A DNA stretch of 64,000 nucleotides, from positions 4,064,001-4,128,000 of the forward strand of contig NZ_CP036299.1 in NCBI RefSeq assembly GCF_007752345.1, read 5' to 3'. Shown piece by piece: positions 27,022 through 29,393 of the stretch. The notes under the pieces were generated by a model, which saw nothing but the letters and a program-made list of their open reading frames with translations, was not told the origin of the DNA and ran no database searches. Every line of letters begins with the position of its first letter. Positions within the stretch are counted from its first letter, which is position 1. Made by a program: the position numbers and the translations under genes. This DNA comes from Planctopirus ephydatiae. GTDB lineage: Bacteria; Planctomycetota; Planctomycetia; Planctomycetales; Planctomycetaceae.

Positions 27022-27054
27022 CGTAGGGTGGGTTAAGGCCCTGCGCAACCCACC
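27022..27054. repeat. REP-like palindrome, copy 1 (GTAGGGTGGGTTAAGG type)
   Basis: GGTGGGTT (27027-27034) pairs with AACCCACC (27047-27054) around AAGGCCCTGCGC. A second copy lies at 28701-28734, directly before the transposase relic. Confidence 0.7.
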
Positions 27055-27455: not shown

Positions 27456-27480
27456 TTTGCGGCATCCGATTCTCTGGTAG

Positions 27481-27507
27481 GCTGCATGAAGTTCCGACGC
27501 AATGCAC
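27481..27507. repeat. Short palindromic repeat, copy 2 (GTGCATGCAGTTCCGACG type)
   Basis: GCTGCATGAAGTTCCGACG followed by CAATGCACC matches the copy at 23753. It lies just after the terminator. Confidence 0.5.
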
Positions 27508-27615
27508 CGACTTCGCAGGGATACTATGCGGCAGAATCCAGCCCAGTTATTGAATGTTACTTAGAAGGTGGCGCACAGAGTTACGTTAAATAAACCGTCG
27601 AGTTCTTCAGTAATC

Positions 27616-28436: not shown

Positions 28437-28688
28437 CACCTCTTTTGCCACGGGCACACAGGTGACCTTAAGGCTGGCAACACGTGTTATTCAGCCAGCA
28501 AGGAGAGTCCCTCGAGCAAATGAGTTTATCATCCTCATTGAATTCAGAGAATATGGTTTCTTCTCTAATCCGATCAAGCTCAAGTGATTCATTTGGTTGG
28601 AGCCTGAGTTCTGAAAGCTCCTTATTGGCAGGGTGGCACAGGTTGCGAGTCCCCGAGCTACCTGTGTGCCAGCGGCACGAGAGGTTGG
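28437..28688. repeat. Inverted-repeat-bounded segment (MITE-like)
   Basis: 28437-28463 and the complement of 28662-28688 agree at about 22 of 27 positions, with a perfect 11-base block GGCACACAGGT. The roughly 200 bases between have no product. The right end also folds on itself: GGCACAGGT (28637) with ACCTGTGTGCC (28662). Confidence 0.45.
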
Positions 28689-28700
28689 CCTTCCAGCACT

Positions 28701-28734
28701 CGTAGGGTGCGGTTAAGGCTTTGCGCAACCCACC
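28701..28734. repeat. REP-like palindrome, copy 2 (GTAGGGTG type)
   Basis: CGTAGGGTGCGGTTAAGG followed by CTTTGCGCAACCCACC matches 27022-27054 with a few changes. It lies about 25 bases before the first recognisable transposase codons, where RAYT-linked REPs are expected. Confidence 0.7.
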
Positions 28735-28757
28735 ACCTCAAAAACCCCATTCAATTG

Positions 28758-29135
28758 ATCAATGACTCCGAGAACGACCGCGGCCCAACATCCCTCTCCA
28801 CGATCATCACAGAACTTCGACGTCCGATCTTGACCAGCGATGCCAGCAGGGACCAACGTGTGAGCCACTACGCGAGAATCACACGAAACAATCCCCTTCA
28901 GTTGATCGCGATTATGCTGATTCCCGATCACCTGCACGCCGTAGAACGATGCCTCGCGACGAAGGTGAATCAGGGCGTTGTTTCGACGACATTTATGCAA
29001 ATCTGCAGAAACACGGCTTGGTAATCCAGCCGCCAATACGCCCTGGAGTTCCTCCCATGGTTTTTGACAAGCTGGCGAATTCCGTGAATTTGAAGATGAC
29101 GCGAGGGATATGGGAGTTATACTCACGAGACGCGT
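28758..29135 (+). pseudogene. Decayed REP-associated tyrosine transposase (RAYT / Y1 family)
   Basis: Pieces of a Y1-type transposase lie in order in different frames. 28780 onwards reads TIITELRRPILTSDASR, like the strand and RRP motif near the start of RAYTs. About 28900 reads LQLIAIMLIPDHLHAVE, with the His-x-His metal motif. About 28955-29020 reads DEGESGRCFDDIYANLQKHGLV, matching the usual KHGLV block, and about 29030 reads NTPWSSSHGF, matching the usual YPWSSFHRF. At least two frame changes and a stop separate them, and the catalytic-Tyr helix cannot be placed. It is a relic, not a working gene. Confidence 0.65.
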
Positions 29136-29393
29136 GAAACAATGGTGGACTGCGCAAAGCCTGAATTCACCCTACCTCGCTTTGGTGGGCCACGCTTCCA
29201 GGACAGCTTTTCTATTGGTTCAAACGTGTGTTGGCGACTCGTCGTTGCACCGCCTTCGCGATAGGATCATCATTCCGCAGAGCGACAGAACCTTACTGAA
29301 TGGTCGATACAGGGGTCCCGCCTGCGATCAGCTGGGCGGGTGGTGTCGGAGTTGGTGAACGGGCAATCTTTTTCACGATGAATGGGAGCGGAA

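Follow-up and report, generated by a model that had tools for sequence, protein, structure and literature searches.

A decayed, internally deleted REPtron in Planctopirus ephydatiae and the possible mobility of REP-bounded units

A REPtron consists of the gene of a Y1 HUH transposase, the RAYT (TnpAREP), flanked by a pair of inverted REPs, each with a GTAG foot; the REP type is specific to each RAYT, and a CT lies near the end of the element. The GTAG repeats extend to Planctomycetes, and REPtrons are described as unable to self-propagate in the accessible part of PMC3733652. The surveys, as far as their available text goes, give in general one full-length RAYT gene per REP type (PMC6006769) and no sign of IS-like mobility of RAYTs (PMC2817692; Nunvar, 2010), and in their view RAYTs are no longer able to move their own genes. 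PMC3686654 describes pseudogenised RAYTs and, in three Pseudomonas strains, second RAYTs that occupy new sites and have another REP class, so that both relics and a degree of duplication have a precedent. REPINs or BIMEs likewise have two inverted REPs around a short interior and are presumed to be moved in trans by a RAYT, and the IS200/IS605 elements share the Y1 single-strand transposase and have non-autonomous deletion derivatives that keep both ends. These systems bear on the persistence of RAYTs and on the origin of REPs. Within the reach of our literature search, outside which many subscription papers lie, there was no report of multi-copy REPtrons in Planctomycetes.

In this work, a window of 64,000 nucleotides of the P. 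ephydatiae genome (contig NZ_CP036299.1, positions 4,064,001 to 4,128,000) was analysed, and positions without a prefix of contig or genome refer to it when they are below 64,000. The window contains a decayed, internally deleted REPtron that is composed of a left GTAG-REP, a RAYT remnant and a decayed inverted right REP (Table 1). An earlier note on this DNA had described a decayed RAYT with four peptide blocks in differing frames, and all four were recovered in three frames: RRPIL (28818-28832) and PDHLHAV (28923-28943) share one frame, KHGLV (29009-29023) lies in the second and PWSSSHGF (29041-29064) in the third. The palindrome said to adjoin the relic was also found, and its repeat near 27022 corresponds to the REP listed in Table 1, which is one base shorter. 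The same note had ended the relic at 29135 and missed the right REP; the element reaches 29175, and in its final 34 bases the palindrome recurs, inverted and decayed.

Table 1. Coordinates of the relic, its right-hand flank and two single REPs in the window
Feature	Position	Strand	Basis or remark
Left REP of relic, GTAG foot and imperfect palindrome, subtype GTAGGGTGCGG	28702..28734	+	Exact pattern match; alignment to left REP of the intact element
RAYT remnant, three frames	28735..29141	+	Profile search and DNA alignment to the intact element
Right REP of relic, inverted, decayed	29142..29175	-	Alignment, hairpin folding
ctcgct directly past the right foot of the relic, CT at +5/+6	29176..29181	+	Compared with RAYT right ends
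Single REP, subtype of the intact RAYT	27023..27054	+	Kept in place in all four genus genomes
Single copy of a second GTAG-palindrome family (GTAGGCTGCATGAAG...)	27477..27508	+	18 places in this genome, at most 3 mismatches

Protein profile searches on the relic did not fail. Positions 28740-29021 matched the NCBIfam profile NF047646 (REP_Tyr_transpos) with an E-value of 2.5e-6 and 27.4 bits, which is under the curated cut-off of 80, and a search of the whole genome with this profile recovered the relic again (E 3.1e-5). The Pfam profile Y1_Tnp gave a weak match (E 0.1), too weak to serve by itself as evidence for the relic. The DNA between the palindromes was aligned to an intact RAYT element of the same genome with a score of 164, compared with a mean of 36 (sd 6.8, maximum 69.5) for 500 mononucleotide shuffles. 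Relative to this element, the relic lacks, through two deletions, 160 bp at element positions 244-403 and 45 bp at 538-582. The remnant is frameshifted and retains PDHLHA, and an Asp stands at the codon aligned to the tyrosine of DYVHANP in the intact copy, which we take to be the catalytic residue of the RAYT family. The combination of HUH motif and catalytic tyrosine is present in the intact copy and absent from the relic, which is a dead, non-working member of the REPtron family. Both of its REPs are decayed, since hairpin folding as DNA gave z-scores of -0.75 for the left and +1.15 for the right, the latter no better than shuffles.

The genome (5.2 Mb, one contig; G000) contains three RAYTs above the NF047646 cut-off. 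The intact homologue (C1:1371605-1372150, E 1.8e-54) is enclosed on both sides by the relic's palindrome in inverted orientation, which bears out the earlier suggestion of a RAYT relic beside its own REP. Its protein scored 183.6 bits as REP-associated versus 22.1 bits as IS200. As DNA, its REPs form hairpins of -8.3 kcal/mol (z -3.0 and -3.1). As in REPtrons, a GTAG foot lies 5' of the imperfect hairpin, and two inverted REPs surround the gene in both the intact element and the relic. The second intact RAYT (4989471-4989923) has a different palindrome on both sides (GTAGGGTCCGC...GCGGACC), the nearest right-hand copy being degenerate and an exact copy lying further out. A scan for GTAG hairpins around the third gene (4338479) found none. 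As the intact RAYTs have differing palindromes, REP and RAYT are matched in type. The RAYT at 1371 kb shares one flank with the sister genome G095 from 25 bp outside the element, and it shares a flank at 93% with copy a of the relative G033; thus, it and copy a are orthologous there.

Two copies of the short form, A and B, were found on contig C464 of G095, matching the relic over 473-475 bp at 85%. Both deletions are common to the three sequences, and A and B also have the Asp at the tyrosine codon and keep PDHLHA. The relic is equidistant from A (85.2%) and B (85.1%), and A and B are 80.0% identical to each other; therefore, two or more copies of the dead short form existed at about the time when the species split. 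A and B lie in one locus, about 1.5 kb apart and in the same orientation, and their flanks are unrelated, starting at the REP feet. The left flank of the relic is shared with B at about 85% and not with A, with the switch at the GTAG foot. With their ends kept, their interior deleted, more than one copy and differing flanks, the relic, A and B resemble MITEs. At the relic locus in G033 there are fragments only. Among 170 genomes of the family, matches to the relic were limited to G000, G033 and G095, with none outside the genus. No intact parent closer to the relic was found in this set either, the G033 matches being ordinary RAYTs (70-73%).

Full REPtrons were clearly multi-copy and REP-bounded in two of the ten genomes compared, G033 and G045. 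G033 has three of one type, of which a and c are 97.1% identical over 694 bp and b about 82%, the latter with one TAG; the homology of the 97.1% pair ends 1 bp and 14 bp outside the REP feet. The three in G045 are 86.9-89.4% identical, with homology ending at most 7 bp from the REP feet, and one of them carries two stops. In G070, a partial pair aligns over 406 bp (87.7%) and stops 4 bp beyond CTAC; such copies were not seen in the other seven genomes. In the search for near-identical pairs, no homologous pair was obtained in G004, G015, G050, G051 or G059, and G040 and G067 reached about 70-72% only. G033 also contains a unit of about 202 bp (C1:3622871-3623072) with two inverted REPs around a 62-bp piece of RAYT. 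The site of G033 copy c is uninterrupted on one G095 contig, and its right flank occurs also on a second; this empty-site comparison is confounded by local duplication, as a 63-bp direct repeat is present there in G033. The repeat (95%; locus L132, 4867-4929 and 5627-5689) flanks copy c, and Y1 elements normally make no target duplication.

A RAYT relic with both REPs is thus of a known kind. The unusual part is the dead, deleted, REP-bounded copies together with multi-copy full units, which mobility of the whole unit explains best. According to the available parts of PMC6006769, PMC2817692 and PMC3733652, the surveyed REPtrons occur singly and do not move as units; here, by contrast, a genome can have several of them, with homology that is bounded by the REPs, and there are deleted copies bounded in the same way. 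Unlike REPINs, with their short spacer and high copy number, these elements enclose identifiable RAYT sequence (407 bp for the relic and a detected 62 bp for the derivative of G033), and the main REP subtype occurs at 8 places in this genome. They also differ from IS200/IS605 in that the protein is REP-associated and the ends are near-symmetric inverted REPs.

The association of REPs and RAYTs was surveyed at 87 loci, including L132 and L133 and some duplicates (L024 is L133, and L029 and L053 have identical flanks), using the 80 tblastn matches in which 140 or more residues were aligned; shorter ones were dropped. By the strict form of the GTAGGGTG-type motif, 40 of the 80 have it upstream, 44 downstream and 34 on both sides, compared with 0 upstream and 3 downstream in a distal control, for which 65 matches had sufficient flank. 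In the reverse orientation the motif occurred in 21 and 25, a pattern that we read as paired REPs. Beyond the CTAC right foot, a CT starting at +4 to +7, a window picked after inspection of the flanks, was found at 26 of 32 RAYT right ends, which remained after removal of identical flanks and are not all independent by descent. In 5-base windows whose start lay at +9 to +14, the count was 5 to 8 of 32, and in the overlapping window starting at +1 it was 11 of 32. No comparable CT signal was found in the left-end flanks. The CT at +4 to +7 may be the trace of a putative cleavage at CT, and purified TnpAREP proteins do cleave at CT, guided by GTAG, as stated in the part of PMC8266576 that was available.

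We hypothesize that REPtrons of this group move as units and that the relic is probably a non-autonomous deletion derivative, with transposition, its single-strand mechanism, the supply of transposase in trans and the order of events all inferred from sequence comparison. The intact RAYT would bind single-stranded REP hairpins, cut at the CT a few bases past the right foot and carry along anything enclosed by two inverted REPs, whether the RAYT gene or what deletion has left of it. By the time its known copies diverged, the short form had lost 205 bp together with the presumed catalytic tyrosine, and later copying would therefore have taken place in trans. Unit mobility is favoured because the intact RAYT has the same REP inverted on both sides, because the relic, A and B share deletions and Asp while the flanks of A and B are unrelated, and because the multi-copy REPtrons of G033 and G045 have homology ending at the REPs. 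The REP-bounded derivative of G033 and the CT enrichment, together with the biochemistry in the accessible text of PMC8266576, argue for it as well. Against it, no clean empty site was found, and clear multi-copy REPtrons are confined to two of the ten genomes compared. Moreover, the proximity of A and B makes local duplication with replacement of the flanks possible. Their common locus and orientation would equally suit an ordinary pseudogene, that is, a RAYT that died in place, with the G095 copies as local segmental duplicates and RAYTs otherwise static, as in the surveys whose available parts call RAYTs single-copy and immobile (PMC2817692, PMC6006769). However, no flank is common to A and B, even though the relic and B share one, and full REPtrons are also multi-copy with REP-bounded homology; we consider this explanation rather unlikely, though it deserves some weight.

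The earlier note had also proposed that the relic may be the fossil parent of the palindrome family. The palindrome does stand at both ends of the relic, and its left REP recurs as an identical single copy at G000:C1:635010, G033:C1:5090965 and G095:C152:680; however, the flanks of these three are common at 93-94%, and they are thus one old insertion. The subtype of the intact RAYT, GTAGGGTGGGTTAAGG, is also that of the REP at 27023, which has kept its place in all four genomes, so its descent from the relic is unlikely. The main subtype, GTAGGGTGGGTT, is that of the intact RAYT and occurs at 8 places in this genome, 21 in G033, 10 in G074 and 9 in G095, with no backward-pattern control matches. 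The relic subtype, GTAGGGTGCGGTTAAGG, was found at 4 places in this genome with at most 3 mismatches, the relic included; for GTAGGGTGCGG there are 4 in this genome, 4 in G033, 0 in G074 and 8 in G095. The relic seems to be a dead passenger within the palindrome family and at most the parent of the minor subtype, and a founding role in this genome is very improbable. A chance meeting of transposase-like blocks with an unrelated hairpin, to which the weak Pfam match taken alone might point, is contradicted by the alignment score, the NF047646 match and the right REP, and has next to no probability.

REPtrons of this planctomycete family may be undomesticated and still moving as IS-like, REP-bounded units, with internal deletion yielding a size series, a broader proposal on which we are evenly divided. 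The series would run from the full 678-bp element to the 473-bp dead passenger, the mini-element of about 202 bp, and a bare REP doublet or single REP. It would mean that there is a direct fossil route from a RAYT transposon to REP families, and a lineage in which several copies bounded by REPs occur alongside shared deletion derivatives would be a natural system for the direct study of REPtron transposition.

Some further repeats were observed. None of the three RAYTs of this genome bears the palindrome of the second GTAG family, whose 18 places were counted with 0 backward controls. A palindromic repeat of about 60 bp (GGCACAGGTTGCGAG...CTACCTGTGTGCC; 28628-28687) lies directly left of the relic and has dozens of 78-90% matches in all four genomes of the genus. 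At G000:C1:77712-77903 (L141) and on G095:C373, a REP is followed by a 3' RAYT fragment (78%), an older relic common to the two species. In G040 (L205, C1:571400-574900), the 3' end of a REPtron is amplified at 1363-2469 of the locus into five tandem units of about 221 bp, each of which ends in a CTAC foot.
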